From contig NZ_CP092427.2 in NCBI RefSeq assembly GCF_022374875.2, positions 3,534,001 to 3,598,000 of the forward strand: a DNA stretch of 64,000 bases, written 5' to 3'. The translations under genes were made by a program, and so were the position numbers. This stretch comes from Mycolicibacterium rufum (GTDB taxonomy: Bacteria; Actinomycetota; Actinomycetes; Mycobacteriales; Mycobacteriaceae). The notes below the pieces were generated by a model that worked only from the letters and a program-made list of their open reading frames with translations, made no database searches and had not been told where the DNA came from. Of this stretch, positions 595 to 17,900 are shown one piece after another. Every line of letters begins with the position of its first letter. The stretch's first letter is position 1.

Positions 595-1995
595 ATGACA
601 GCCACCGAGTCCGACCAGTCGAGGCCGGAGAAGAAGAAGCGCGACCGGACGCACTGGCTCTACATCATGGTGATCGTCGCGGTCGTCGCCGGCATCGTGG
701 TGGGCCTCGTCGCGCCCGACGCTGCCGCCTCACTCGGCGTGCTGGGCGAGCTGTTCGTCAAGCTGATCAAGATGATGATCGTCCCGGTCATCTTCTGCAC
801 CGTCGTGCTCGGCATCGGCAAGGTCAGGGCCGCCACCGCCGTCGGGAAGGTCGGCGGGCTCGCGCTCGGCTACTTCCTGGTGATGTCGACGGTGGCGCTG
901 GCCATCGGCCTGGTCGTCGGCAACCTGATCAGCCCCGGGACCGGGCTCGACGTCACCGCCGACCCGGGCAAGGGCGCCGAGCTGGCCGGTGAGGCCGAAT
1001 CCGCCGGCGGCGCCATGGATTTCATCTCCGACATCATCCCGTCCACGCTGTTCTCCTCGCTCACCGAGGGCAACGTGCTGCAGGCACTGTTCGTCGCGCT
1101 GCTCGTCGGGTTCGGCATCCAGTCGCTGGGCCGGACCGGTGAGCCGCTGCTGCGCGGCATCGAGGCGGTGCAGAAGCTGGTCTTCAAGATCCTGATCGGC
1201 GTGCTGTGGCTGGCCCCGATCGGTGCCTTCGGCGCGATCGCCGAGGTGGTGGGCGACACCGGGTTCGAGGCGGTGATCCAGCTCGGGGTGCTGATGCTGG
1301 CGTTCTACCTGACGTGCGTGATCTTCGTGTTCGGGGTGCTCGGGGCGCTGCTGTGGATGGTGGCCCGGGTATCGGTGTTCAAGCTGGCCCGCTACCTGGC
1401 CCGGGAGTACCTGCTGATCGTCGCCACGTCGTCGTCGGAGTCCGCGCTGCCGCGGCTGATCGCGAAGATGGAACACGCCGGCGTGGAGCCCGCGACCGTC
1501 GGCATCGTGGTCCCGACCGGCTACTCGTTCAACCTCGACGGGACCGCGATCTACCTGACCATGGCATCGCTGTTCATCGCCGACGCGCTCGGCGATCCGC
1601 TGTCGATCCCCGAACAGCTGGGCCTGCTCGCCTTCATGATCATCGCGTCGAAGGGCGCGGCGGGCGTGAGCGGCGCCGGCCTGGCCACCCTCGCCGCCGG
1701 CCTGCAGAGCCACCGGCCCGAGTTGCTCGACGGGGTCGGGATCATCGTCGGCATCGACCGGTTCATGTCCGAGGCCCGCGCGCTGACCAACTTCTCCGGC
1801 AACGCCGTCGCCACCCTGCTCGTCGGCTGCTGGACCCATACCGTGGACAGCGGCCGGCTCAACGATGTGCTCGACGGCAACCGGCCCTTCGACGAGTCGA
1901 CGATGGTCGACGACCACGACGCGACGCACGACGTGCGTGACACACACGAGGCGCGCGACACCTCCGAATCGAGGAAGACCTCTCCGACCGGGTAG
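595..1995 (+). CDS. Dicarboxylate/amino acid:cation symporter (SDF family)
   Basis: A 466-residue inner-membrane transporter of the sodium:dicarboxylate symporter family (GltP/DctA type), expected to import C4-dicarboxylates, glutamate or aspartate with Na+ or H+. Several hydrophobic helices are visible, starting about residue 20. The serine-rich re-entrant loop motif ATSSSESALPRLI (about residues 276-288) and the NMDGT-type motif, here FNLDGTAIYLT (about 306-316), are both present. The C-terminus is a hydrophilic Asp/His/Arg-rich tail of about 30 residues that is not part of the transport core. The ATG has a GGGAGGG Shine-Dalgarno about 7 bases upstream. The substrate cannot be read from the sequence. 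Confidence 0.85.
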   Translation: MTATESDQSRPEKKKRDRTHWLYIMVIVAVVAGIVVGLVAPDAAASLGVLGELFVKLIKMMIVPVIFCTVVLGIGKVRAATAVGKVGGLALGYFLVMSTVALAIGLVVGNLISPGTGLDVTADPGKGAELAGEAESAGGAMDFISDIIPSTLFSSLTEGNVLQALFVALLVGFGIQSLGRTGEPLLRGIEAVQKLVFKILIGVLWLAPIGAFGAIAEVVGDTGFEAVIQLGVLMLAFYLTCVIFVFGVLGALLWMVARVSVFKLARYLAREYLLIVATSSSESALPRLIAKMEHAGVEPATVGIVVPTGYSFNLDGTAIYLTMASLFIADALGDPLSIPEQLGLLAFMIIASKGAAGVSGAGLATLAAGLQSHRPELLDGVGIIVGIDRFMSEARALTNFSGNAVATLLVGCWTHTVDSGRLNDVLDGNRPFDESTMVDDHDATHDVRDTHEARDTSESRKTSPTG

Positions 1996-2142
1996 GTCGT
2001 GTCCCCTCCGGTCGTCCGCACTTGCGCTGCCCGACGATTCGGTTGTGGGTCCGAGGTGTTCTCCAGGTCACATCTGCCGTGCCATGTTGGTGCTCGACAC
2101 CGCCACGCACTGCAGATCGGCTCTGGAAAGGAACCCGTCGCC

Positions 2143-3435
2143 ATGAAGGTCGAAGATCTCCTCAAACCGTTCCCCATCAAGGAGTTTCACCCGTTCCCCC
2201 GCGCCATGATGGGCCCCGGCGCCCACGAGATGGTCGGCCCCGAAGCGCTGAAGATGGGCTTCAAGCGAACGCTGCTGATGAGCTCGGGCCTGCGCGGCAC
2301 CGACATCGTGCACAACATGGCCGAGTCGCTGAAATGGCACGGCCTCGAGGTCGTGGTCTACGACCAGGTGGAATCCAATCCCAAGGACTACAACGTCATG
2401 GATGCGGTCAAGCTGTACCAGGAGAACGAGTGTGACAGCTTCGTCTCCATCGGCGGCGGCTCCACCCACGACGCCTGCAAGGGCGCCCGCATCTCGATCG
2501 CGCATGACGGCCGCAACGTCAACGATTTCGAGGGCTTCAACAAGAGCGAGAATCCCAAGAACCCGCCCCACATCGCGATCTCGACCACCGCAGGCACCGG
2601 CTCGGAGACCTCGTGGGCCTACGTCATCACCGACACCACCACCGATCCGGACAACCCGCACAAGTACGTCGCGTTCGACGACGCGTCGGTGGCGACCCTG
2701 GCCGTCGACGACCCGGTGCTGTACTTCGAGTGCCCCGTCGACTACACCGCGCAGTGCGGCTTCGACGTGCTCGCCCACGCCTCCGAGCCCTACGTCTCCC
2801 GGCTGAACTTCGAGCCGTCACTGGGCAACGCGATCCGCGCGATCAAGCTGACCGCCGAGAACCTGCGCGAAGCCACCTGGAACGGAACCGATCTCAAGGG
2901 CCGCGAGGGCATGATGTACGCCCAGTACATCGCGGCGCAGGCGTTCAACTCCGGCGGGCTGGGCATCATCCACTCGATCTCGCATGCGGTGTCGGCGTTC
3001 TACGACACCCACCACGGGCTGAACAACGCGATCGCGCTGCCCCGGGTGTGGGCGTTCAACATGCCGGTGGCCTACAAGCGCTTCGCCGACATCGCACAGG
3101 CGATGGGGGTGGACACCTACGGCATGACCGATGTGCAGGCCGCCGACGCCGCGCTGGCCGCCGCGATCCGGCTGCTGCGTGACGTCAACATCATCGAGCG
3201 CTTCGTCGACGTCAAGCAGGACAGCTACTCGAAGAACCGGCTGGGGCAGGGCCCGACGAAGTTCTACGAGAATGCCAAGGTGATCACGGGCGACAAGGCC
3301 GACGTCGACCGCATCACCAACCATGTTCTCGGCGATGCCTGCACCCCGGGCAACGCGAAGGAGTGCACGTTCGACACCGTGCGCCCCGTGGTCGAGCACT
3401 GCATGAACGGCAGCCTCGACGAGCTGCTGCCGTAA
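2143..3435 (+). CDS. mno: Methanol dehydrogenase-type, mycofactocin-linked type III alcohol dehydrogenase (Mno/Mdo)
   Basis: A 430-residue iron-containing (type III) alcohol dehydrogenase. The closest remembered relatives are actinobacterial NDMA-dependent methanol dehydrogenases, which hold a tight nicotinamide cofactor and pass electrons to an external acceptor, in vivo mycofactocin. The nucleotide-binding GGGSTHDACKG is near residues 103-113. Metal-ligand histidines lie in HSISHAV (His277, His281) and DTHHG (His290, His291). The chosen ATG has GGAAAGGA 10 bases upstream; earlier in-frame starts would add a non-conserved, Arg-rich leader. It heads a tightly packed run with a MoxR ATPase and a VWA protein only 2 and 3 bp apart, suggesting a chaperone-assisted enzyme. 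Substrate (methanol, ethanol or small diols) is inferred. Confidence 0.85.
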   Translation: MKVEDLLKPFPIKEFHPFPRAMMGPGAHEMVGPEALKMGFKRTLLMSSGLRGTDIVHNMAESLKWHGLEVVVYDQVESNPKDYNVMDAVKLYQENECDSFVSIGGGSTHDACKGARISIAHDGRNVNDFEGFNKSENPKNPPHIAISTTAGTGSETSWAYVITDTTTDPDNPHKYVAFDDASVATLAVDDPVLYFECPVDYTAQCGFDVLAHASEPYVSRLNFEPSLGNAIRAIKLTAENLREATWNGTDLKGREGMMYAQYIAAQAFNSGGLGIIHSISHAVSAFYDTHHGLNNAIALPRVWAFNMPVAYKRFADIAQAMGVDTYGMTDVQAADAALAAAIRLLRDVNIIERFVDVKQDSYSKNRLGQGPTKFYENAKVITGDKADVDRITNHVLGDACTPGNAKECTFDTVRPVVEHCMNGSLDELLP

Positions 3436-3437
3436 CG

Positions 3438-4553
3438 ATGTTCGCAACCGTCGAGGACGTGCGCGAGGCGCTCGCCGGCGAGGGCTACATCGCCGACGAG
3501 CGCCTGGCCACCACGGTGTTCCTGCAGACCCGGCTGGACAAGCCACTGCTGATCGAGGGACCCGCCGGTGTCGGCAAGACCGAACTGGCCAAGGTGCTGG
3601 CCGCGGCGACCGGCCGCCGCCTGCTGCGGCTGCAGTGCTACGAGGGTCAGGACGAGACCAAGGCGCTCTACGAGTGGGACTACGGCAAGCAACTGCTCTA
3701 CACCCAGATCCTGCGGGAGAAGATCGGTCAGATCGTCTCCGACGCCACGGATCTGACGGAGGCCGTCGAACGGATCGGCGCGCAGGAGAGCGTGTTCTTC
3801 TCCGACCGCTTCCTCGCTCCGCGACCTCTGCTGGAAGCGGTCCGGTCCGAGGAACCGGTGGTGCTGCTCGTCGACGAGATCGACCGCGCCGACGAGGCGT
3901 TGGAGGCGGTGCTGCTCGAATTGCTCGGCGAATACCAGGTGTCGGTGCCCGAGATCGGCACCTTCACCGCGAGGCATGCGCCGTATGTGATCCTCACGTC
4001 GAACAACACCCGCGATCTGGCGGCGGCACTGAAACGACGCTGCCTGCACCTGTTCCTGGACTATCCGGCGGCCGAGCGCGAACTGGAGATCGTGCGGTCC
4101 AAGAACACCGGGTTGACCGACGCGCTGGCCGCGCAGCTCGTCGACATCGTCCGCGGCCTGCGGGAGCTGGAACTGCGCAAGGCGCCGAGCATCTCGGAGA
4201 CCATCGACTGGGCCCGCACGCTGGCGGTGCTCGGCGTCGACGAGTTGTCGGCCCAGATGCTGTCGGACACCGTGTCGGTGGTGGTGAAGTACGACAAGGA
4301 CGTCCGCAAAGCGCTCGACGCGCTGCCGCGGCTGGTCGACCCGAATGCGACGGTGCCCGAACAGCACCCGCACCGCCACGGCCATGACCACGGTCACGAC
4401 CATGATCACGACCACGGTCACGGTCACGATCACGGCGACGACGGGAAAGCGGCCCGGCTGGCCAAGGACCGGCCCGGTCGGTTCACCGACGGTTACTACG
4501 GCACACCCAAAAAGACCGCGGCGGCGACGCTGGGCCGGCGCCGGGCACTGTAG
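3438..4553 (+). CDS. MoxR-type AAA+ ATPase with histidine-rich C-terminal tail
   Basis: A 371-residue MoxR-like AAA+ ATPase. Walker A is GPAGVGKTE (Lys about residue 47), Walker B VLLVDEIDRAD (about 142-152), and sensor 1 is in ILTSNN. MoxR ATPases team with VWA proteins to remodel or metal-load partner enzymes. After the AAA+ core, about residues 310-335 form an almost uninterrupted His/Asp/Gly tract (HGHDHGHDHDHD and onward) with at least ten histidines, followed by a basic end. This tract is not part of standard MoxR and resembles metal-storage stretches of HypB or UreE. The gene starts 2 bp after the mno stop and ends 3 bp before the VWA gene. Metal delivery to the dehydrogenase is an inference. 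Confidence 0.85.
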   Translation: MFATVEDVREALAGEGYIADERLATTVFLQTRLDKPLLIEGPAGVGKTELAKVLAAATGRRLLRLQCYEGQDETKALYEWDYGKQLLYTQILREKIGQIVSDATDLTEAVERIGAQESVFFSDRFLAPRPLLEAVRSEEPVVLLVDEIDRADEALEAVLLELLGEYQVSVPEIGTFTARHAPYVILTSNNTRDLAAALKRRCLHLFLDYPAAERELEIVRSKNTGLTDALAAQLVDIVRGLRELELRKAPSISETIDWARTLAVLGVDELSAQMLSDTVSVVVKYDKDVRKALDALPRLVDPNATVPEQHPHRHGHDHGHDHDHDHGHGHDHGDDGKAARLAKDRPGRFTDGYYGTPKKTAAATLGRRRAL

Positions 4554-4556
4554 GCC

Positions 4557-6077
4557 ATGGAGGCCACCCTGCACCGGTTCGTCCGGCTCCTGCGTCTGGC
4601 CGGGGTCCGCGTCTCGATCCCCGAGGCGCTGGACGCGATGCGGTGCGCCGGGCAGCCCGGTGTGTTGTCGTCCCGGGCTGTCCTGCGGACCGCATTGCGC
4701 GTCGCGCTCGTCAAAGACGAGCGCGACGCCCCGGTGTTCGACGAGATCTTCGACGCGTTCTTCTCGCTCGTGCGGGTCGGCGGCGCGGAAGACGGCCACG
4801 GGCACTCGCATGCGCACGACGATCTCGTCGACACCGGAGAACTCGAATCCTTCACGCTCTCCGAGGAACCCAGCGACACCCCCGAACAGGGACACGAGCA
4901 CGGCAAGCCGTCCAGCATCCGGGACTACTTCAAACAGGAGGACCTGGCGCAGCGCTACAACCTGCACCAGGAGGCCAACAAGATCGACCTCGCCGCGCTG
5001 ACCGACGAGATCGCGTTCTCCAAGGACAGCCGCAGCGGCGCCGACGACGCGGTGCGGATCCAGTTGTCCACCGACCGGCTGAGCGGCGCCACGTCCGCGG
5101 GTGATCTGGCCACCTCCGCAGGCACCGCCGTCGACGCCGAGTTGACCATCGCCGAGCAGGACGCCCTGCTCGGGTGGCTCGACAGCGAAATGGATTGCGC
5201 AGGAGACGAATCCGACGCCGCAGCGCTGCGCAAACGGTTGGCCGGGGTGCTGGAGAACCTGCCGGCGGCGCTCAAGCGGCACCTGGAGGCGCTGCTGGCG
5301 TTGGAGACCGCGATCGTCGAGACCCGGGAGCGGCGCGAGGCGCGGGTGGACCGCATCGCCGAGACCGAGCGCGCCGACCTGGAGGACTCACTGCGGCGGC
5401 TGGCCCGCACCCTGCACGGGGCGCTGACCCACCGCCGCCGCGTCGCCGCTGCCGGCCGCGTCGACTCGGGCCAGACCATGCGACGCAACATGCGCTTCGA
5501 CGGCGTGCCGTTCATGCCCGTCACCGTGCGCCGCGCCGAGGACCGGCCGCGGCTGGTGGTGCTGGCCGATGTGAGCCTCTCGGTGCGGGCCACGTCGCGG
5601 TTCACCCTGCACCTGGTGCACGGCCTGCAGGACCTCTTCACCCAGGTGCGGTCGTTCGTGTTCGTCGCCGACGTCGCCGAGACCACCGAAATGTTCCGCG
5701 ACCACCCGAGCGAACGGGCGCTCGGCCTGATCTTCGGCGGGGACGTCATCGACATCTCGGCGAACTCCGACTACGGCAGCGTGTTCGGCGAGTTCCTCGC
5801 CGAACACTCCTCGGCGATCACCCGCCGGACCACCGTGCTGGTGCTCGGCGACGGCCGCACCAATGCGCGCGACCCCAACCTCGCGGCGTTCGAGGAGATC
5901 ACCCGCCGTGCACGGGAGACCGTGTGGCTCACGCCCGAGCCGCGCTACTCCTGGGGCCTGGGCAGCTGTGACCTGCCGGCGTACGCCGAATACTGCGACC
6001 GGGTGCGCGTGGTGGCCGACCTGTCGGGGCTGGAAACCGCCGCGCACGAGTTCGCCGCGGACGCCGTGGGGAGATGA
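4557..6077 (+). CDS. VWA-domain protein (CoxE-like), partner of the MoxR ATPase
   Basis: A 506-residue protein whose C-terminal half is a von Willebrand A domain of the CoxE type. The MIDAS motif is ADVSLS (Asp about residue 338). The middle (about 190-310) is charged and probably helical. Near residues 80-90 there is a short histidine cluster (GHGHSHAHDD) and a second GHEHG further on, echoing the His tract of the preceding ATPase. MoxR/VWA pairs act in enzyme maturation, for example CoxD/CoxE and NorQ/NorD. The tight linkage to two alcohol dehydrogenases suggests these are the clients. Its TGA (6075-6077) is followed one base later by the GTG of the next gene, so translation is probably coupled. 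Confidence 0.82.
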   Translation: MEATLHRFVRLLRLAGVRVSIPEALDAMRCAGQPGVLSSRAVLRTALRVALVKDERDAPVFDEIFDAFFSLVRVGGAEDGHGHSHAHDDLVDTGELESFTLSEEPSDTPEQGHEHGKPSSIRDYFKQEDLAQRYNLHQEANKIDLAALTDEIAFSKDSRSGADDAVRIQLSTDRLSGATSAGDLATSAGTAVDAELTIAEQDALLGWLDSEMDCAGDESDAAALRKRLAGVLENLPAALKRHLEALLALETAIVETRERREARVDRIAETERADLEDSLRRLARTLHGALTHRRRVAAAGRVDSGQTMRRNMRFDGVPFMPVTVRRAEDRPRLVVLADVSLSVRATSRFTLHLVHGLQDLFTQVRSFVFVADVAETTEMFRDHPSERALGLIFGGDVIDISANSDYGSVFGEFLAEHSSAITRRTTVLVLGDGRTNARDPNLAAFEEITRRARETVWLTPEPRYSWGLGSCDLPAYAEYCDRVRVVADLSGLETAAHEFAADAVGR

Positions 6078-6078
6078 C

Positions 6079-7365
6079 GTGAGTCGTACGCTGGAGCTGT
6101 CCGGGTCACACTCCGTGCGCCCGGCCCGGGGCGTGCGAGGCGAGGCAGTGACGAGATCGGACAGCGGCGCGGCAGCGGTCGGGACGTGCGACGACCGGCG
6201 CCGCGCGGAGTCCGGGGCACGGCTGCTGAAATTCCACGCCCCCGAGATCGTGTTCGGCATCGACTCCATGGCCGAGGCCGCCCACGCCGCGCTGCGGCTC
6301 GGCGCGCTGCGGCCGATGCTGGTCACCGACCCCGGGCTCATCGAGGCCGGCTGGGCCGATGAGATGGTCGACCACCTGGCCGAGCAGGGCATCGCGGCCC
6401 GGATGTGGCACCACCTCACACCCAACCCGAAAGACCACGAGATCGCCGCCGGGTTCGACACCTACGCCGAGCACGGCTGCGACGTCCTGCTGGCCGTCGG
6501 CGGCGGCTCGGTGATCGACGCGGCCAAGGGCGTGGCGATCCTCGCCGCCAACGGCGGGGACATCCTCGACTACGAGGGCGTCGACAAGGCGGAGATGCCG
6601 ATCCCGCCGCTGGTCGTCGTGCCGTCCACGTCGGGAACCGGCGCCGACGTGTCGCAGTTCTGCATCGTCACCGACACCACCCGCAACACCAAGATCACCA
6701 TCCTGGGGCGCGCGCTCGTCCCCGACATCACGGTCATCGACCCGCGGCTACTCACCACGATGCCCGAGTGGCTCAACGCCGCCACCGGTCTGGACGCGCT
6801 CACCCACGGCATCGAGGCGTTCGTCTCGCTGGGCCACAACCAACTCACCGACCACCACGCGCTGCGTGCCGTGCAGATGGTCACGGACAACCTGGCCGCC
6901 ACCCTGGAGCGGCCGCAGGACATGCCCGCCCGGGTGCTGATGGCCCAGGCCGCGCTGGAGGCGGGGTTGGCGTTCACCAACGCGATCCTCGGCGCCGCCC
7001 ACGCGATGAGCCATCAGGTGGGCGGCCTGCTCGATCTGCCGCACGGCGTGGTCAACGGCGTGCTGCTGCCGCACGTCATCCGCTTCAACGCCGAGGCGGA
7101 CCCCGAGCCCTACAAGACCATCGCGACGTTCCTCGGGGTCGCCGAGGCGGGGGCGCCCGCCGCTGAGGCGGCCCTGGCGCTGGCCGATCGCATCGACCGG
7201 CTGGCCCGCGACGTCGGGGTGCCGCGCGGCCTGGCGCAACTCGGCGTGTCCGAGGACGACCTGCCCCGGCTGGCGAAGACGGCGCTGGCCGACGCCTGCA
7301 TGAGCACCAATCCGCGCCCCGCCGACGAGAGGCAGATGCAGGCGCTGTTCCGGGCGGCGATGTGA
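6079..7365 (+). CDS. Second iron-containing (type III) alcohol dehydrogenase, 1,3-propanediol dehydrogenase-like
   Basis: A cytoplasmic type III alcohol dehydrogenase of 428 residues from this GTG. It carries GGGSVIDAAKG (nucleotide binding), a conserved GLDALTHGIEAFVS block, and the fingerprint HAMSHQVGGLLDLPHG with metal-ligand histidines. It is clearly distinct from Mno and closer to 1,3-propanediol or lactaldehyde-type enzymes. The GTG at 6079 is chosen because GGGGAG sits 5 bases upstream and it nearly abuts the VWA stop. The first 48 residues are unconserved and Arg-rich, so GTG 6148 (405 residues) is a real alternative; recognisable homology begins at LLKFHAPEIVFG. It is the fourth gene of the alcohol-oxidation run. 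Substrate unknown. Confidence 0.83.
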   Translation: MSRTLELSGSHSVRPARGVRGEAVTRSDSGAAAVGTCDDRRRAESGARLLKFHAPEIVFGIDSMAEAAHAALRLGALRPMLVTDPGLIEAGWADEMVDHLAEQGIAARMWHHLTPNPKDHEIAAGFDTYAEHGCDVLLAVGGGSVIDAAKGVAILAANGGDILDYEGVDKAEMPIPPLVVVPSTSGTGADVSQFCIVTDTTRNTKITILGRALVPDITVIDPRLLTTMPEWLNAATGLDALTHGIEAFVSLGHNQLTDHHALRAVQMVTDNLAATLERPQDMPARVLMAQAALEAGLAFTNAILGAAHAMSHQVGGLLDLPHGVVNGVLLPHVIRFNAEADPEPYKTIATFLGVAEAGAPAAEAALALADRIDRLARDVGVPRGLAQLGVSEDDLPRLAKTALADACMSTNPRPADERQMQALFRAAM

Positions 7366-7375
7366 GGCGGCTCTC

Positions 7376-8746
7376 GTGACCGCCGCGGACGCCGGCCCTC
7401 CCGACCTCGCCCGGTTGACCGGCCTGCGCTCGGGCAAGGGTCGCTTCTATCCCGAATTACGGCTCACCGCACAGCGTTTGGACCGGGTGATCGCGGCGCT
7501 CGACACCATCTCCCGGGCGCTGGTGCAGACCATCGAGGGCCCGGAGAACCTGGTGCGCGCGGTCGCCGAGGCCGCGCGGGCCACCCTCGACGCGGACTGG
7601 GTGCTGCTGGCACTGGCCGACGGCGCGCTGCCCGAGGCCAGTGTGCGGCACCTCATCCTGGACTCGGCCGGTGTCGCCTACGCCTTCGAAGGACTCCACA
7701 GCGCGGCCGATCCCGGCGCGTCACTGCCCGACGCGGTGCTCAACCGCCTCAACGACATCCTGCGGGGCCAACTCGCGCAGTTCCGGCTGCCGGTGATCGA
7801 GACGCAGCACGCGCACGTGCCGATCGAACTGAACGGCACGGTGATCGGGGCGTTCGCGGCGTGGACGCCGCCGCACCGGACCCTCGACGGCACCGACGCC
7901 ATGGTGATGCGCATCCTGGCCGGGCAGACGGCGGTCGCGTTGCAGAACTCGGCGCTGTTCACCAAATCGGTGACGCTGCTGGCCCAGTCCGAGGCCCGCA
8001 ACGCCGAGCTGCTGGCCACCCAGCGCGAACTCGGTGCGGCACAACGCCATCAGGTGCTCAACTCCGAGCGGCACCGCATCGCCAGGGAACTGCACGACAG
8101 CGTCGCCCAGACCGTGCTGTCGGCCGGCATGCAGATCGAGGTGTGCCGCAGCGAGATCGGTCCGGGCGCAGGGGAGCTGGCCGACAGGCTGGACCTCGCG
8201 AAGGACCTCACCCGCTCGGCGACCGAACAGCTGCGCTCGGCGATCTACGCGCTCAACCAGTCCGACGCCGAACGTTCCGGGCTGGCCGCCATGCTCGGGC
8301 AGCTGGCCACCGTGCACATGCCCGAGGATCTGCGGGTGACGCTGCGGGTGGCGGGCCCGTCCGTGGAGCTGCCCAGCGATGTCGAGCACGCCTTGCTGCG
8401 GATCGCCGGGGAGGCGCTGTTCAACACCGCGATGCACGGCCACGCCACCCGAGCCCTGGTGCGGCTGACCTACGGTGACGACGCGGTGGCGTTGTCGATC
8501 GCCGACGACGGCACCGGGGACCCCGACAAGCTGCGGCTGATGCTGCGGATGGCCGAGGCCGCCGACGTCGACGGCCGGCACCGCGGGCTGGCCAACATGC
8601 GGGCCCGGGCCGCCGAACACGGTGGCACCTTCGACGTCTACCGCTCCCGCATCGGCGGGGTGCGGGTCGTGGCGCGCATCCCGTACGTCGCGGAACGCCG
8701 TGCGGAAAGCCTCGCAGAAAGCCTTGGAGAAAGCCGGAGTTCATGA
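7376..8746 (+). CDS. GAF-domain sensor histidine kinase (NarL/DegS class)
   Basis: A 456-residue soluble histidine kinase with no obvious membrane segment. A GAF-like sensor region spans about residues 40-195, followed by a HisKA_3 dimerisation domain with the phospho-acceptor in RIARELHDSVAQ (His240), and an HATPase domain (about 320-440) with ADDGTGD and RGLANMRARA boxes. It starts at a GTG 10 bp after the second dehydrogenase, preceded by GAGGCGG, and overlaps the response regulator by 4 bp. Cytoplasmic GAF kinases of this class often sense small ligands or redox state. Its position suggests that it reports alcohol or aldehyde availability to the island; this is inferred. Confidence 0.88.
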   Translation: MTAADAGPPDLARLTGLRSGKGRFYPELRLTAQRLDRVIAALDTISRALVQTIEGPENLVRAVAEAARATLDADWVLLALADGALPEASVRHLILDSAGVAYAFEGLHSAADPGASLPDAVLNRLNDILRGQLAQFRLPVIETQHAHVPIELNGTVIGAFAAWTPPHRTLDGTDAMVMRILAGQTAVALQNSALFTKSVTLLAQSEARNAELLATQRELGAAQRHQVLNSERHRIARELHDSVAQTVLSAGMQIEVCRSEIGPGAGELADRLDLAKDLTRSATEQLRSAIYALNQSDAERSGLAAMLGQLATVHMPEDLRVTLRVAGPSVELPSDVEHALLRIAGEALFNTAMHGHATRALVRLTYGDDAVALSIADDGTGDPDKLRLMLRMAEAADVDGRHRGLANMRARAAEHGGTFDVYRSRIGGVRVVARIPYVAERRAESLAESLGESRSS

Positions 8747-9381
8747 CACCCATCAGGCTCGTTCTCGTCGACGACCATGCCATCCTGCGCCAGGGCCTGC
8801 GTTCGGTGCTCGAACGCGCCGACGACCTCGTCGTCGTCGGGGAGGCGGCGTCGGAGGCCGAGGCCGAGGCCGTGGTGCGGGCCACCCAGCCTGACGTGGT
8901 GCTCCTGGACCTCAAGCTGTCGGCCGGCTCGGAGTTCGAGGGACTCACGTTGTGCGCCAAGCTGTCCGCGGAGTATCCGGCGCTCGGCCTGCTGGTGCTC
9001 ACCACGTTCCTCGACGAGGACCTGGTGGTGCGTGCCGTGCACGCCGGCGCGCGGGGGTACGTGGTCAAGGACGTCGACACCACCGAACTGGTCCGGGCGA
9101 TCCGAGCGATCTCGGCGGGAGAGAGCGCGTTCGACTCGCGCAGCGCCGCCGCGGTGGTGCGGTCCCTGTCGGGCCGCGCGGAGCCGCGCGCACAGCTCAC
9201 CGACCGCGAGGTCGAGGTATTGCGATTGCTCGCGGCCGGGTTGTCCAACAACAAGATCGGCGAGAAGCTCTACATCTCCGCGACGACCGCGAAGTTCCAC
9301 GTCAGCAACATCATGCGCAAACTCGAGGTCAGCAGGCGGGCCGAGGCGGTGTACGCGGCGAGCAAGCGGGGCCTGATCTAG
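8743..9381 (+). CDS. LuxR/NarL-family response regulator
   Basis: A 212-residue two-component regulator. The receiver has the acidic pair in LVLVDDH (Asp10, Asp11), the phospho-acceptor Asp56 in VVLLDLKL and the conserved Lys in YVVKDVD. A LuxR-type helix-turn-helix covers about residues 152-205 (LTDREVEVLRLLAAG through KFHVSNIMRKL). The ATG overlaps the kinase stop (ATGA), so the two proteins should be made together. The likely target is the promoter ahead of mno in the 147 bp upstream of 2143, but no operator can be assigned. The gene converges with mftM and their stop codons overlap. Confidence 0.9.
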   Translation: MTPIRLVLVDDHAILRQGLRSVLERADDLVVVGEAASEAEAEAVVRATQPDVVLLDLKLSAGSEFEGLTLCAKLSAEYPALGLLVLTTFLDEDLVVRAVHAGARGYVVKDVDTTELVRAIRAISAGESAFDSRSAAAVVRSLSGRAEPRAQLTDREVEVLRLLAAGLSNNKIGEKLYISATTAKFHVSNIMRKLEVSRRAEAVYAASKRGLI

Positions 9382-10253
9382 CGATCCAGCACCAGCCAGC
9401 CGCCGTGAAAGGCGTAGGTGTGGGCGGTGATTCCCGCATGCCGGCCTGTCAGCTCGTCGGCCAGCCGCTGTAGCCGCAGTAGGTCGAACCGCTGGACGTG
9501 GCCGTAGCAGTCCCGCGGTTGCTCCTCGAACGGCACCGCGACGACGACGCGGCGGCGGGCCAGCCGCAGCGCCTCGTCGAGCACCGCGTGCAGCGCGTCG
9601 GTCGGCAGATGCTCGATCAGGTGCAGCGCGGTCACGGTGTCGGCGCTGCCGTCGGGCAACACGACGTCGGTGGCATCGCACGCCAGCGTCGCCACCGGGC
9701 GGCACAGCCGGGTACTCACCCGGTCCAGCAGCCCCATCGCCGAGGGGCTCAGATCGGTGGCCAGGACGTCGTGTCCGAGCGCGGCCATCCGCAGCGGGAA
9801 GAACCCGAAGCACGAGCCGAGATCGATCAGACGCGGCCCGCGGACCTGCGCGGCCGCCTCGGCGTGGATCGGGGCGAAGGCCGCGTCACCGTGCTCGAGA
9901 GCGGCCAGCGAGTTGCGGTAGAACCGCAGCCAGGAGGACAACCCGCCGTCGACGGTGGAGCGGACCACACCGGTGAACACGAGCTCGAACTCGGACTGCC
10001 CGCGCAGTACGCCGGTGTCGACCAGGTGTTCGGTCAGCAGCAGCGTGAGCGCGTCGGACAGCTCACCGGGCGTCAGGTCGTGCTCCACGGTGAGCCACGC
10101 GCCGCGCCGGTGCACACAGAACCGGGGGGTGCACACGGTCGCGACGGCCGGGTGCGGCCGGTGCGGGCCGTGCCGGCGGGTGACCTGGACGCCGTGGCCG
10201 CTCCAGCGTCCGCGCGGGCACGGGGCGAGCGGATCGAGCAGGGCTGCTTGCAT
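9378..10253 (-). CDS. mftM: Mycofactocin oligosaccharide methyltransferase MftM
   Basis: A 291-residue class I SAM-dependent methyltransferase. SAM motif I is in LIDLGSCFGFFPLRMA (about residues 140-155) followed by the acidic ATDLS, and the post-I block DATDVVLPDGSADTVTALHLIEHLP is typical of the fold. The overall sequence matches my memory of MftM, the enzyme that methylates a glucose in the mycofactocin glycan and lies outside the main mft cluster in M. smegmatis, next to this same kinase/regulator pair. The N-terminal 55 residues are His/Arg/Pro-rich. The start is an ATG without a clear ribosome-binding site. It is convergent with the response regulator and divergent from the MftD-like gene. 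Confidence 0.75.
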   Translation of the reverse strand: MQAALLDPLAPCPRGRWSGHGVQVTRRHGPHRPHPAVATVCTPRFCVHRRGAWLTVEHDLTPGELSDALTLLLTEHLVDTGVLRGQSEFELVFTGVVRSTVDGGLSSWLRFYRNSLAALEHGDAAFAPIHAEAAAQVRGPRLIDLGSCFGFFPLRMAALGHDVLATDLSPSAMGLLDRVSTRLCRPVATLACDATDVVLPDGSADTVTALHLIEHLPTDALHAVLDEALRLARRRVVVAVPFEEQPRDCYGHVQRFDLLRLQRLADELTGRHAGITAHTYAFHGGWLVLDR

Positions 10254-10408
10254 ATTCGTCGACGTTAGGGCCCGGGCGGGGGCCTCCGCGTGCCCCGAAC
10301 GGGTGCGATACCGGGCCCGCCCGGATGGGTGCCGACTGCCCGATCGGCGAGTTCTGCAGCGCGGTGGCCGGTTTTACCGTGGAGACACCGTGGAAGAGGG
10401 AGACACCA

Positions 10409-11575
10409 ATGGCCACCTGGTTCGAGACCGTCGCCGAAGCTCAGCTGCGTGCCCGAAAGCGGCTGCCGCCCAGCGTCTACAGCGCGCTGGTCGCCGGATC
10501 GGAGAAGGGCCTCACCGTCGCCGACAACATCTCGGCGTTCGCCGAGCTCGGCTTCGCACCCCACGTCGCCGGACTGTCCGGTAAGCGGGACATGGCGACG
10601 ACGGTGATGGGGCAGGCGATCTCGCTGCCGGTGCTGATCTCCCCGACCGGTGTGCAGGCCGTGCACCCCGACGGCGAAGTGGCGGTGGCGCGCGCCGCCG
10701 CGGCCCGTGGCACCGCGATCGGCCTGTCGTCGTTCGCCAGCAAGCCCGTCGAGGAGGTGGCGCAGGCCAACCCGGCGACGTTCTTCCAGATGTACTGGAC
10801 CGGTGGCCGGGACACGCTGGCGGCCCGGATGGAGCGGGCCCGGCGCGCCGGCGCCGTCGGGCTGATCATCACCACCGACTGGTCGTTCTCCAACGGCCGC
10901 GACTGGGGCAGCCCCGCCATCCCCGAGCGGATGGACCTCAAAGCCATGCTGCGCTTCGCGCCGGAGGGGATCCGCAGACCGCGTTGGCTTCTCGAGTTCG
11001 CCAAGACGGGTCGGGTGCCGGACCTGACCGCGCCCAACCTCGCCGACGGCGGCGCGGCCCCGACGTTCTTCGGCGCCTACGGCGAGTGGATGCAGACCCC
11101 GCTGCCGACGTGGGAGGACATCGCGTGGCTGCGGGAACAGTGGGGCGGGCCGTTCATGCTCAAGGGCGTGATGCGCGTCGACGACGCGCGCCGGGCCGTC
11201 GACGCCGGGGTCACCGCGATCTCGGTGTCCAACCACGGCGGCAACAACCTCGACGGTACGCCCGCACCGATCCGTGCGCTGCCCGCGATCGCCGAGGCCG
11301 TCGGCGATCAGGTCGAGATCGTGCTCGACGGCGGCATCCGGCGCGGCTCCGACGTCGTCAAGGCCGTCGCCCTCGGCGCCCGCGCCGTGATGATCGGCCG
11401 CGCCTACCTGTGGGGCCTGGCCGCGGGCGGTCAGGCCGGCGTCGAGAACGTGCTCGACATCCTGCGCGGCGGTATCGATTCCGCGCTGCTGGGGCTCGGG
11501 TTGTCCTCGATCCAGGAACTCGACGCGACGAATCTGGTTGTTCCCGAGGGGTTCCGACGCGACCTGGGGGTCTAG
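10409..11575 (+). CDS. FMN-dependent alpha-hydroxy-acid dehydrogenase, MftD-like (pre-mycofactocin synthase family)
   Basis: A 388-residue FMN alpha-hydroxy-acid oxidase/dehydrogenase. The catalytic block SVSNHGGNNLDGTPAPIRALP (His about residue 275) and the FMN phosphate loop VLDGGIRRGSDVVKA are intact. The N-terminus (WFETVAEAQ) and the body resemble M. tuberculosis LldD1/MftD (Rv0694) much more than lactate dehydrogenases. MftD oxidatively deaminates the peptide-derived precursor to pre-mycofactocin. The ATG has GAGGGAGA upstream at good spacing. It is divergent from mftM across 155 bp. No other mft gene is in the window, so this may be a second copy, a relocated mftD or a relative with another substrate. 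Confidence 0.72.
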   Translation: MATWFETVAEAQLRARKRLPPSVYSALVAGSEKGLTVADNISAFAELGFAPHVAGLSGKRDMATTVMGQAISLPVLISPTGVQAVHPDGEVAVARAAAARGTAIGLSSFASKPVEEVAQANPATFFQMYWTGGRDTLAARMERARRAGAVGLIITTDWSFSNGRDWGSPAIPERMDLKAMLRFAPEGIRRPRWLLEFAKTGRVPDLTAPNLADGGAAPTFFGAYGEWMQTPLPTWEDIAWLREQWGGPFMLKGVMRVDDARRAVDAGVTAISVSNHGGNNLDGTPAPIRALPAIAEAVGDQVEIVLDGGIRRGSDVVKAVALGARAVMIGRAYLWGLAAGGQAGVENVLDILRGGIDSALLGLGLSSIQELDATNLVVPEGFRRDLGV

Positions 11576-13481: not shown

Positions 13482-13583
13482 TAGACGCCATCGCGGGGCC
13501 CGGGCGGGCCAGTTGCGCGGTGCGGCCTTCTCCACCGCCGGTACAGTCACGGTCATCACCGTGGGGGGAGGGTGCAGCGGCCG

Positions 13584-14720
13584 ATGGCGTCGAGTCCCAC
13601 GTTCCTGCTGCTCGGACCCTTCCGGATGACGGTCGGGGACGCCCCCGTCACGTTGGGCACCCCCAAACAGCGGGCGGTGCTCGCGGCGCTGGTGCTGCAC
13701 CGCAACCGGCCGGTCGCCACCGACGCGCTGATCGACGCCGTCTGGGGTGAGGGTGCCCCGCCCGAGGCGCGAGCCAGCCTGCACGCCTACGTGTCGAACC
13801 TGCGCCGGCTCATCCGCACCGCAGGCGCCGACGACCGCCGGCTGCTGGAGAAGGCGTCGCCCGGCTACCGGCTCACCATCGCCGACGACGCCGTCGACCT
13901 GGGTCGGTTCGTCACCGCCAGAACCGCCGGGCTCGAGGCCGCGGCGGCGGGCCGCTTCGCCGAGGCGAGCCGGCACCTGTCGGCCGCGCTGTCGCAGTGG
14001 CAGGGTGCGTTCCTCGAGGACCTGTCCGGCTTCGCGTTCGTCGAGAACCACGCCGTCGCGCTCGACGAGGACCGCATCTCCGCGCACACGGTGTGGGCCC
14101 AGGCCGAGATCGCGTGCGGGCGCGCCGCGTCGGTGATCGGCGAGCTGGAGGACCTCGTCGCCCGGTATCCGTACCGGGAACCGTTGTGGGAGCAGCTGAT
14201 GAGCGCCTACTACCTCGAGCGCCGGCAGTCCGACGCGCTCGAGGCCTACCGCCGCGTCCAGACGGTGCTCGCCGACGACCTCGGCATCGACCCCGCCCCG
14301 GCGCTGCGGGACCTGCACGAACGGATCCTGCGTCAGGAGCCGCTGAACATCGAGGGCGCGGCCCGTAAGACCGCCGCCGACACGATGATCGCGACCGTCA
14401 ATCGGATGGCGCTGCCCGCGACCAGCCGACCGGCGCGCCTGCGCTCGGCCACCGGGACGGCGTATCCCGTCGCCGACACCGTCACCCGCATCGGTCGCCA
14501 GTCCGACAACGACATCGTGCTCGCCGATCCCCGGGTGAGCAGGTATCACGCCGTCATCGTCGGCTCGGGACCCGGTCACGTGATCATCGACGCCGACTCG
14601 GCCAACGGTGTCTTCCTGTCGGGCAGGCGGATCGACGGCAGCGCGGCGCTGTCCGACGGCGACGCGATCACGATCGGTGACGGCGTGTTCGTCTTCGAGA
14701 TCGACGACGCCGCCGGGTAG
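13584..14720 (+). CDS. EmbR-like transcriptional regulator (winged helix + BTAD + FHA)
   Basis: A 378-residue regulator of the SARP/AfsR class resembling mycobacterial EmbR throughout. Order: winged-helix OmpR-type domain (about 1-95), bacterial transcriptional activation domain (about 100-245), linker, and a C-terminal FHA domain (about 280-375) with the phosphothreonine-binding signature RIGRQSDND and RVSRYH, then SANGVFL. EmbR activates embCAB after phosphorylation by the kinase PknH. Here a Ser/Thr kinase gene lies convergently downstream, across a strong hairpin. ATG 13584 is preferred; a GGGGGGAGG sequence lies 12 bases upstream, and GTG 13572 would add four residues but sits directly on that sequence. 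Confidence 0.85.
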   Translation: MASSPTFLLLGPFRMTVGDAPVTLGTPKQRAVLAALVLHRNRPVATDALIDAVWGEGAPPEARASLHAYVSNLRRLIRTAGADDRRLLEKASPGYRLTIADDAVDLGRFVTARTAGLEAAAAGRFAEASRHLSAALSQWQGAFLEDLSGFAFVENHAVALDEDRISAHTVWAQAEIACGRAASVIGELEDLVARYPYREPLWEQLMSAYYLERRQSDALEAYRRVQTVLADDLGIDPAPALRDLHERILRQEPLNIEGAARKTAADTMIATVNRMALPATSRPARLRSATGTAYPVADTVTRIGRQSDNDIVLADPRVSRYHAVIVGSGPGHVIIDADSANGVFLSGRRIDGSAALSDGDAITIGDGVFVFEIDDAAG

Positions 14721-14922: not shown

Positions 14923-17900
14923 ACCCCAGGAGGGAGCGGGCGTGCACCACGTCGGGCAGCGCGCAGTCCGGAGGCAGCCGCGACAGCGCGTCGGCGAGGG
15001 CGCCGCGGGCGTCGTCGCCGCGCAGCACGACGTCGTCGCAGGCGGCGCGCACCTCGAACAGCGGCGCCCCCTGGTGGCGGGCCAGCGCCACGGCGACGCC
15101 GAGATCGGCGGCCCGGGTGTCCGGATCGTGGTGCGTGCGGGCCCGGGCCCGCAGCAACTCGGCGTCGAAGAAGTGCATGTCGGTGTCGTCGGCGATGCGC
15201 AGAGCGGTGTCGATCCGCGCCCGCGCCTCGCCCAGACGGCCCGCCGCGATGAGCAACTGGCTCAGCACGCAGTCGTACTGGGTCTGATAGGCGAACAAGC
15301 CCAGGGACCGCCAGAAGTCGGTGAACTGGGTGAGCAGGTCGATCTGGGCGCCGAGTCGATCCGGATCGGCCTGCTCGGCGCGCATCGCGATGTCCGCGTC
15401 GACGGTGGCCTGCCCCAGCGTGGAGCCCAGCGCGTGCCAGAAGTCGATGCCGTACCGCTCGGCCCGCTCGACCATGTCGGCCACCACGCCGCGGGCCCGG
15501 TCGAGCTGGCCGCACTCGCGGCGCAACCACACCTCGATGTGGCTCGCGTACGCCTGGTTGTACGGACCCCAGGGGAACGCGAGCTCGTCGCCGCGATCCA
15601 TCGCCCTGGCCATCGCCGCGTCGGCGGCCGCCTGGTCGCCGTGCAGGATGTGCCACATCGACAGGTGCTCGTAGGCGAGCGCGACGACATCCCACGGGAT
15701 GAACCACAGCTCCTGCATGCTGTTCTGGCCCTCGTCGTCGAAGCCGGCGCTGGCCTCCTCGAAATACCCTCGCGCCCGGCTGAACTCGCCGCGCAGGAAC
15801 GTCACCATGCCCTGCACGCACGCGATCGCCGGGCTCCACACCCGCCGCTGCTCGTCGGGCTTGGCCTGCATGGCCTCGGCCAGCTGGTTGGCCCGGCGCA
15901 GATCCGACTTGTTGATGTAGTAGCTGCTGACGGCCAGCAGCGTGCCGAACACCTGATCGTCGTGCAGATCGGAGCCCACGATCTGCAGACATCGCTCCAG
16001 ATCCGCTGCCACCGAGGGACTCTGATATCCCTCGGAGGTCGAGGTGAGGAAGCCCCGCTCGAGCCGGGGCTCGATCTCGAGGCGGTCGCGGTCGCGCCCG
16101 GGCGGGCAGAGCTCGAGTTGCGTCAGCGACCGGGTGAGGTACGTGCGCGCCTCCTCCAGCGCGCCGCGGCGTCGCGCGTCGGCCGAAGCCTGCCGGTAGG
16201 CCGCCGCGGCGTCGGCGTGCCGCTCGGCATGCTCGTAATGTGCTGCCACCAGCCGCCAATCGGGCTCCCCGGCGGCGCCACCGACCAGCACGTCGGCGGT
16301 CTTGCCGTGCAGGGTGCGGCGCACACTGGGCGGTGCAAGCTCCGCGGCCACCTCGCGCAGCAGCTCGTGCCGGAACTTCCAGGCATCACGCCCGTGCGGC
16401 TCGAAGACCTTGGCGTCCTCGAGCTCGTCGATGACGTCGTCGACCGCGTCCTCGCTCAGCGAGGACACGGCGATCAGCAGCGCGCGGTCCACGTGCCGGC
16501 CGATCACGGCCGCCGCGGACACCACCGGCACCACGTCGGGGACGGCCAGCAGGCGCGCGAACAGCGGTTCGTAGAGGGAGTCGGGCACCGTCGAGTGGTG
16601 CACGTCGGTGCCCGGATCGAGTCCGTTGACCACCTGCTCGATGTAGAACGGCACGCCGCCGCAGCGCTGCCGGACCGCGGCGCACTGCTCGGGCGCCACC
16701 CGCGGATCCAGGGCGAGCACCAACTCGTCGGTCTGTTCGTCGGTCAGCGGGCTCAGGTCGAAGACCTTGGCGGGCCACCGGTCGGAGAGCCAGTTGCCGT
16801 CGCGGCCGGTGATCACCGCCAGGAGCCGGCCCTCGGTCGCGCCCAGCAGCGCGCCCACCAGTTCCAGCGTCGAGCCGTCGAACCAGTGCGCGTCCTCGGC
16901 CAACAGCAGCCCGGGCGCATCGCCGAACGCGGTCAGCAGGTACGTCTTCACCGCGGCGGCGATCAGCTCCTGCAGCTTACGGCCCTCGGCCCGCGGGGTC
17001 TCATACCCCAGCGATGCGTCGAGGCCGAGAATCGGTGCCAGCAAGGGGATCTCGGTCTGTGGGTCGAGGCCCAGCCCGGCGACCTCGGCTTCGAGCAGCT
17101 GTAGCCGGCGCACCGGTTCGGTGAGCCGGGTGATGCCGGCGCGGCGCTCCAGCAGGAGCCGGACCGGGTGCAGGCCGACGTCGGCGTGCACCGGTGAGCC
17201 GACGAGTTCGAGCACGGTGCCGCCGTCGCGCTGCACGAGTTCGGTGGCCGCCGCCGCCAGCCGGCTCTTGCCGATGCCCGCCTCACCGCGCAGCACCACG
17301 GCAGGCACCGTCAGGGTGCCTGCCTTGGCCCGTCGCCAGCTCTTGTCGAGCCGCGCGAATTCGCGGTCGCGGCCGACGAGCGGACCCATCGGTGTCAGCC
17401 CGGCGTAAGCCCGCTCGCCGAGCACACGGAACGGGTTGACCACCTCGTGCGAGCCCGGCATGGCCACCGACGGCATCTTCTCCAGCTCGAAGGCGTTGCG
17501 GATCAACGGTTCCACCGAATGCGACACCGCCACCCCGCCCGTCGGGGCCAGCGCCGAGACCTCCGCGGCCTGCGTGACCGCCAGGCCGTACACGTCGTCC
17601 TGGTCGGTGTCGAGATAGACCGGGCCGCGGTGCACGCCGATCCGAACCGCGACCGTCGCCCCGAACCGGCGCTGAGCCTGCTCGCTGAGCCGTTCGATGT
17701 CGTGCGCGATGTCGAGCCCGGCCTGCACCGCGCGGTGCACGTCGTCTTCGTGGGCGTTGGGATAGCCGAACACCACCAGCAGACCGTCGGCCTTCGACGA
17801 CGCGACGTGGCCCTCGTAGTGCGCGGCGATCTGGCGGACCACGTCCCGGAACCGGCCGATCAGCAGCCGGTAGGTCTCGGGGTCCACCCGCAGCGCGAGG

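Follow-up and report, generated by a model that had tools for sequence, protein, structure and literature searches.

Does the sensing of alcohols in mycobacteria reach the genes that supply the cofactor for their oxidation? Mycofactocin is required for alcohol oxidation, and its known repressor, MftR, responds to long-chain acyl-CoAs; because alcohol pathways do not involve long-chain acyl-CoAs, the authors of that work expect other regulators (PMC8728441). The question arises in a 9.4 kb island of Mycolicibacterium rufum, located within a 64-kb stretch of DNA (64,000 nucleotides) that was analyzed as a whole and is called the window (contig NZ_CP092427.2, C1:3534001-3598000, in a 6.1 Mb genome). 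There, an Mno/Mad alcohol-oxidation locus lies next to mftM and a second mftD (mftD2), and a copy of the palindrome found in the mno promoter lies between these two mycofactocin genes. Our explanation, to which we give a probability of about 0.7, is that this is an alcohol locus with two boxes driven by the response regulator MadR, and that mftD2 is what remains of a mad-linked set of mycofactocin (mft) genes.

Open reading frames (ORFs) and profile searches place eight genes within positions 2143-11575, six of them close-set on the plus strand. A previous sequence-only reading of this DNA had put these genes in one 9.4 kb stretch and had described six plus-strand genes with gaps of at most 10 bp or overlaps; coordinates and family models bear out both, the junctions from mno through madB, madC, the ErcA-like gene, and madS to madR being +2, +3, +1, +10, and -4 bp. 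The features, in window coordinates, are as follows.

1978..1997, no strand assigned: box 1, ACCTCTCCGACCGGGTAGGT, probable MadR/MnoR operator of the mno operon; 145 bp 5' of the mno ATG, 26.7 bits
2143..3435, plus strand: mno/madA, N,N-dimethyl-4-nitrosoaniline (NDMA)-dependent (mycofactocin-linked) type III alcohol/methanol dehydrogenase; TIGR04266, 667.7 bits (cut-off 625)
3438..4553, plus strand: madB, MoxR-type AAA+ ATPase with a His-rich C-terminal tail; NF047784, 390 bits (under the cut-off of 475)
4557..6077, plus strand: madC, VWA-domain partner (CoxE-like); NF047783, 271 bits (under the cut-off of 600), and PF05762, 114.7 bits
6079..7365, plus strand: second type III alcohol dehydrogenase (ADH), ErcA-like, GTG start uncertain; NF041833, 476.7 bits (under the cut-off of 550)
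7376..8746, plus strand: madS/mnoS, GAF-domain sensor histidine kinase; NF047786, 614 bits (cut-off 500), with HisKA_3, HATPase_c, and a weak GAF_2
8743..9381, plus strand: madR/mnoR, NarL/LuxR-type response regulator; NF047785, 356 bits (cut-off 300)
9378..10253, minus strand: mftM, mycofactocin oligosaccharide methyltransferase; NF041255, 362.8 bits (cut-off 200)
10334..10353, no strand assigned: box 2, GACTGCCCGATCGGCGAGTT, probable MadR operator in the mftM/mftD2 divergent promoter; 16.8 bits
10409..11575, plus strand: mftD2, second pre-mycofactocin synthase; TIGR03966, 712.9 bits (cut-off 470.85)

Mno, MadS, MadR, MftM, and MftD2 exceed their NCBIfam cut-offs; for MadB, MadC, and the ErcA-like protein the families named are the best ones and the scores are below cut-off, that of the ErcA-like protein having been computed on a longer ORF beginning at 5863. 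Since MadB and MadC score low although position and best family agree, we regard them as a divergent type ('MadB-like' and 'MadC-like') and use the short names below. Judged by eye, Mno seems to have all four metal-ligand positions of its family. mftM converges on madR with a 4 bp tail-to-tail overlap and is separated by a gap of 155 bp from the divergent mftD2. What the earlier reading listed as 'GAF kinase/LuxR regulator' is two genes and not one, and the 'MftD-like flavoenzyme' is an MftD outright, its score lying above the curated cut-off.

The core of the island (mno, madB, madC, the ErcA-like gene, madS, and madR) is an Mno/Mad alcohol-oxidation locus, and such a core is already known, the mno operon with MnoSR having been studied experimentally in M. 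smegmatis. That operon (msmeg_6242-6238 and 6236) has the same Mno, AAA ATPase (6241), 6240, second type III ADH (6239), kinase, and regulator, together with an S-adenosylmethionine (SAM) methyltransferase (6237) and upregulation by ethanol. MSMEG_6236-6242 are upregulated by ethanol in the wild type only, with higher basal levels in untreated mft mutants, and MSMEG_6242 is required for growth on ethanol (PMC6529628); MnoSR (6238/6236) is required for the use of 1,3-propanediol and ethanol (PMC11303327). Published work links the system to methanol, ethanol, and 1,3-propanediol (PMC11303327, PMC6529628), and a dedication to C1 compounds and diols, as had been proposed, does not hold. In Rhodococcus jostii RHA1, MadA/EgaA is likewise a mycofactocin-associated ADH and carries out mycofactocin-dependent ethylene glycol oxidation (PMC13210347, PMC11166783); the R. 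jostii locus in our survey (L164) has no madR in view. Set against the published operon of M. smegmatis, a species outside our named loci, the window adds an mftD that diverges from mftM, with a second box between the two.

An alignment of 20 mno upstream regions gave the palindromic consensus ACCTGCCCGATCGGGCAGGT. A site with six or fewer mismatches to it is present in 18 of these regions, starting 143-217 bp 5' of the mno match; L077 and L086 (L and G numbers are our handles for loci and genomes) have none upstream of mno. A position weight matrix (PWM) trained on the 18 mno-promoter sites gave its best score in the window at box 1, itself a training site. Box 2, which was not used in training, scored 16.8 bits against a background maximum of 10.9 bits over 82,944 positions. 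Among named relatives, a site of at least 9 bits lies within 800 bp upstream of mno in 47 of 49 loci and upstream of mftM in 63 of 80, 61 of the latter exceeding the background maximum; the chance rate for the mftM box is 0.017 per locus (29 matches in 1,377,733 other positions), and a site of 8.97 bits in L150 was not counted. The named loci are the best 80 of 197 MftM relatives, so the counts describe the closest relatives, and some of the records are genomes that also carry G handles. Of the 17 loci in a first set, all but L072, L074 (p 0.06), L077, and L086 have an accepted site 5' of mftM (13 loci, p <= 0.011 per region).

The box keeps company with madR. The mftM-upstream box is present in 56 of the 63 named loci with madR in view and in 7 of the 17 without. 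Before the mftA on the mad side it is found in 37 of 47 loci, many of them rhodococcal (31/33 with madR in view and 6/14 without; Fisher p 0.0003, uncorrected for relatedness). In the whole genome, a two-box pattern matches perfectly at the island boxes only, with one further match at one mismatch; the pattern was written from both island boxes, so only the lack of other matches is informative. Off-island near-matches at C1:831526, C1:1153322, and C2:12222 were set aside as chance, all being inside long mechanical ORFs, which is weak evidence in GC-rich DNA. The best box score in this genome's canonical mft promoter is 3.4 bits. From its place, its symmetry, and its company with madR, the palindrome is probably the MnoR/MadR site, and MadSR may control mycofactocin supply directly. 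A second copy in the mftM/mftD promoter is what would be expected if dehydrogenase and cofactor genes formed one regulated unit, so the sequence-only reading stands on this point at the level of sequence, next to the published ethanol upregulation; taken as a whole its interpretation is partly supported, and the locus itself is not new.

The island is not self-contained, as had been supposed. The sole MftC over cut-off in the genome is found by profile search at C1:1.883 Mb, 1.65 Mb away, with the first MftD adjoining; mftA, an MftB-like stretch, mftE, and mftF are seen there too, and no complete biosynthesis cluster of mftA, mftB, and mftC with mftD was found at the island. The island MftD is therefore a second copy, and the island alone cannot make mycofactocin. 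(The PqqD model PF05402, tried as a probe for MftB, gave no match and was the wrong model, as MftB has its own; an ORF of the canonical locus with the working label mftG had no Pfam match, and the label is not used.)

MftD2 shares 75% identity with the other MftD of its genome and 79-85% with most rhodococcal mad-side MftDs, with lower values for L155 (76%), L169 (74%), and the tandem copies in L177 and L178 (74-75%). The latter two Rhodococcus loci each carry a tandem MftD pair within one mad-side mft cluster. In a midpoint-rooted tree of 95 MftDs (L073, L081, L106, L135, and L141, from the same or close genomes as rows that were kept, and L103, with a broken frame, were omitted), 36 canonical mycobacterial MftDs form one clade (100/98), and 27 of 29 mad-linked mycobacterial MftDs form a separate one (100/98), which has Antrihabitans adjoining (97/80) and falls on the same side as 26 rhodococcal rows (91/89). 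MftD2 thus belongs to the lineage that stands beside mad genes in most rhodococci examined and not with the canonical MftD of its own genome. The MftR-controlled canonical cluster (mftA-F) likewise encodes an MftD, and its precursor core, IDGMCGVY, is also found at the end of the mad-side mftA peptides of G024, G041, and G042.

Many rhodococcal loci carry the ErcA-like gene, madS, madR, and mftM together with mftABCD and a box before mftA, and most of those examined keep mftABCD beside mftM, whereas the window keeps mftD only. With full context, 26 of 28 Nocardiaceae loci have mftABC beside mftM (none in L172 and L175), and in those scored as 'ABC' mftD is present just past the 3.5 kb cut. The 37 full-context Mycobacteriaceae loci divide into ABCD (9), A+D (3), D only (12, with L103 broken), and no mft gene (13), and mftB or mftC without mftD was found in none of the 37. 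Among the 27 clade rows, the MftD tree requires at least four changes of mftBC state; if regain is barred, our own reading of the tree is seven losses. mftD2 looks like a remnant of the mad-linked mftABCD set that many rhodococci still carry. In L107, L113, and L115, mftA and mftD are kept on the mad side and mftB/mftC are absent, as if precursor and MftD were worth duplicating.

We surveyed 98 genomes from the genus, sampled evenly from a larger group. MftM was found in 17 of them (over cut-off in 16; in G024 it is partial, being cut by a contig edge), and mno, at a threshold of E <= 1e-100, in 19 (18 of which exceed its cut-off), namely in all 17 genomes with MftM and in 2 of the 81 without it (G008 and G082); the gene grouping is thus not due to chance. 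Ten of the 17 MftM genomes have an MftD within ~3 kb of one of the two genes, mno or mftM, as a second copy in G000, G009, G019, G024, G041, G042, G054, G056, and G067 and as the only copy in G083. G011, with two MftD matches of equal score at opposite ends of one contig, was not counted, and both MftDs of G090 fall in the canonical clade. Among the matches listed, the closest MftM loci from named genomes are those of M. chubuense (90% MftM identity) and M. chlorophenolicum (88%). Second MftF-type glycosyltransferases stand beside mno/mftM in L077 (G037; 2853-4247), L072 (G009; 15213-16625), and L086 (G083; 5736-7100), with 375-393 bits on TIGR03965 (cut-off 280) and 36-40% identity to canonical MftF; different mycofactocin sugar chains are a possible consequence. 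In L077/L138 (M. austroafricanum DSM 44191), mno-madB-madC-mftM and the extra mftF-like gene lie between canonical mftD and mftE.

The explanation we favor would run as follows. MadS and MadR would sense alcohol metabolism, and MadR would bind both palindromic boxes. From box 1 it would drive the six-gene operon for Mno, MadBC, the second dehydrogenase, and MadSR itself. Mno would oxidize primary alcohols with a bound NAD(P) that mycofactocin re-oxidizes; MadB and MadC would help to activate Mno, probably by metal loading in the His-tailed type, and the ErcA-like dehydrogenase would act on a further alcohol or feed the sensor. From box 2, mftM and mftD2 would be driven in opposite directions, so that alcohol would also raise the redox-forming step (MftD) and sugar methylation (MftM). 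The canonical cluster elsewhere would supply precursor and the other mycofactocin enzymes, and in the presence of alcohol its 3-amino-5-[(4-hydroxyphenyl)methyl]-4,4-dimethyl-2-pyrrolidinone (AHDP) would be converted to the active, methylated cofactor. The genes, the two boxes, the lineage of MftD2, the recurrent switches in mftBC state, and the low substitution ratios of MftD2 given below are read directly from the sequences; that MadR binds the boxes and acts there, that MftD2 makes premycofactocin, that the mftBC changes were losses, and the role of MadBC are inferred from them.

The MadR-type box before mftM/mftD2, and before mftA in many rhodococci, would be a direct and testable link from alcohol sensing to cofactor supply. 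A broader claim, which we put a little short of even odds, is that MadSR is the missing alcohol-responsive mycofactocin regulator in Mycobacteriales, acting on mftABCD directly in rhodococci and, after repeated loss, on a second MftD and MftM in mycolicibacteria; MftD (with MftA) would then be dosage-limiting, and mno-madB-madC an exchangeable cassette of enzyme plus metallochaperone. For the engineering of strains that use alcohol, ethylene glycol, or methanol, the retention of mftD where mftBC is absent indicates which pathway step deserves testing before the others. The MftD family has been described as single-copy per genome (PMC3023750). In the literature covered (including PMC3023750, PMC11778925, PMC11162802, and PMC8406134), we found no second mad-linked mftD and no MadR/MnoR box before mft genes; the rhodococcal neighborhood may well be in the primary MnoSR, MftM, or R. 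jostii MadA/EgaA papers. To the known core this analysis adds the conserved box before mftM and before mftA in many rhodococci, the mad-linked second MftD lineage, and the two unmixed mno-madB-madC types described below.

Several observations weigh against this explanation. Box 2 has mismatches to the consensus at 5 of 20 positions, and in M. smegmatis the affinity of MnoR drops with mismatches, from 2.37 to 11.7 uM with two and to no binding with four; in that species the published MnoR palindrome has a single occurrence, 137 bp upstream of msmeg_6242, and motif and expression correlate only at the mno operon (PMC11303327). The identity of our box with that palindrome is deduced from place and symmetry. 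A site of at least 9 bits before mftM is lacking in 17 of the 80 named loci, 7 of which have madR in view. Weak sites turn up in two of eight canonical-cluster promoters, at 10.7 bits in L093 (p 0.014 per region) and at 8.3 bits in L096 (p 0.028), comparable to the weakest of the accepted mftM sites. The loci are related and non-independent, and some genomes supplied both training and test sites. On the MftD tree, mad-side L072 and L086, on long branches, and rhodococcal L155 and L169 group on the canonical side, and the tree covers only loci that retain mftD, while 13 of 37 kept no mft gene. Finally, the ratio of nonsynonymous to synonymous substitution rates (dN/dS) of MftD2, 0.06-0.14 over ten pairs, is in two pairs two to three times as high as that of canonical MftD (0.03 and 0.05).

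The alternative that survives best concerns the ErcA-like dehydrogenase, which might be an alcohol sensor or a signal-modifying partner of MadS and not an enzyme of growth; we entertain this tentatively, with the balance tilted against it. In Pseudomonas, ethanol regulation by ErcA/ErcS/ErdR has an ADH-like protein beside a kinase and a LuxR-type regulator. In the window, the regulatory protein ErcA is the best family model, and the gene lies directly 5' of madS and is present in all 63 named loci that have madS and madR. Inspection by eye finds no membrane segment in MadS, which makes an internal signal probable. The ErcA-like gene also has its own box in 6 of 15 first-set loci, of which five carry the other cassette type and L090 the window type; the PWM scan found no box before it in the window. 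Against the sensor role, the protein falls under the ErcA cut-off (476.7 against 550 bits) and its metal ligands look intact; unlike ErcA, the ADH-like protein of the window may be an enzyme. The closest solved chains are 8zrl (methanol dehydrogenase) and 3bfj (1,3-propanediol oxidoreductase), and the M. smegmatis counterpart is called a putative 1,3-propanediol dehydrogenase (PMC11303327). An ErcA-like/madS/madR triad without mno in rhodococci was considered and dropped, as the loci examined end just past the ErcA-like gene.

It is also conceivable, though we consider it unlikely, that MadB and MadC are not specific to Mno and that the three genes travel together merely as neighbors. Co-transfer of adjacent genes needs no functional tie, both proteins are under their curated cut-offs, and we found no biochemical data on MadB/MadC with Mno. 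In RavA-ViaA, NorQ-NorD, and CoxD-CoxE, an AAA+ ATPase and a VWA protein act on a client enzyme; here the client would be a type III ADH, and the ATPase differs in its His-rich tail. Against mere neighborhood, the 68 loci with mno, madB, and madC (some of them two records of one genome) are either window-like throughout (42) or of the other type throughout (26), with none mixed, despite at least four changes of cassette type on a quick tree of the neighboring ErcA-like, MadS, and MadR proteins (69 rows, 56 typed). The window MadB has 12 His within a 30-residue stretch. All 39 records of window-type mycobacterial MadBs have 9-17 His per 30 residues, as does L169 (Rhodococcoides trifolii), compared with at most 4 in the other type; three Pseudonocardiaceae MadBs (L144, cut short, L157, and L170) are 76-77% identical to the window's and lack such a stretch, so not every MadB of the window type has the tail. 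In M. smegmatis, MSMEG_6237 (SAM methyltransferase) is up 7.4-fold in zinc starvation and down 11-fold in zinc excess, and MSMEG_6240-6242 are down 24- to 28-fold without zur (PMC7174638). Because of the His-rich tail and this zinc response we propose metal delivery to Mno; the data suggest it for the His-tailed MadB type.

That mftD2 is a decaying leftover of a lost mad-linked mft cluster, in a last stage of loss and with no present function, we regard as improbable. It would account for the 13 of 37 Mycobacteriaceae loci with no mft gene beside mftM and for the higher dN/dS of MftD2, and the mad-linked mftD2 frame is broken in M. iranicum H39 (L103); in M. iranicum DSM 45541 (L109) it is intact. 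Yet dN/dS is still far below 1: MftD2 is constrained by purifying selection, less tightly than canonical MftD. The changes in mftBC occur among 27 loci that all keep mftD, and mftB/mftC never persist without it in the 37 loci. At the 160 columns in which 74 other MftDs are invariant, none of the 14 D-only MftD2s departs more than once (seven do not depart at all, and five of the seven single changes are at position 375), compared with four changes in L072 and nine in L086; the one change in the window MftD2 is near the C-terminus. The retained residues, the low dN/dS, and the pattern of D retention make a working MftD kept by selection the most likely state of mftD2.

Still less probable, in our estimate, is a chance origin of the box 2 match, with mftM/mftD2 under some other regulation. 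The five mismatches, the 17 relatives without a 9-bit mftM site, and the canonical promoter of L093 speak for chance, but 63 of 80 loci have the mftM box at an expectation of 0.017 per locus. In the D-only named loci the box is present in 11 of 13 (absent in L119 and L135), and the distances taken in ten of them are 54-91 bp to the mftD match and 61-81 bp to mftM. Of the ten mad-side mftA loci without a box, eight show no madR. MftD2 shares a superfamily with L-lactate dehydrogenase/oxidase, and ethylene glycol and 1,2-propanediol would yield 2-hydroxy acids, so a change of function toward oxidation of such acids (glycolate, lactate) from diols can be imagined. We consider it very improbable, since half of the 14 D-only MftDs have no change and half a single one in the invariant columns, MftD2 scores 713 bits on TIGR03966 against 245 for L-lactate dehydrogenase and is nested among rhodococcal mad-side MftDs, and the M. 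tuberculosis mftD is dispensable for growth on L-lactate (PMC8406134).

The neighborhood of the island holds genes of other kinds. A DctA-like dicarboxylate transporter gene at window positions 595-1995 lies directly 5' of the island, and its end overlaps box 1; DNA resembling this region precedes mno in only a few close relatives. On the 3' side, a regulator with BTAD and FHA domains is encoded at window positions 13572-14720, presumably an EmbR-like protein. Just upstream of the window, locus L012 has genes with GCS2, class II glutamine amidotransferase, and histidine-specific methyltransferase domains, which we take to resemble egtA, egtC, and egtD of the ergothioneine cluster.

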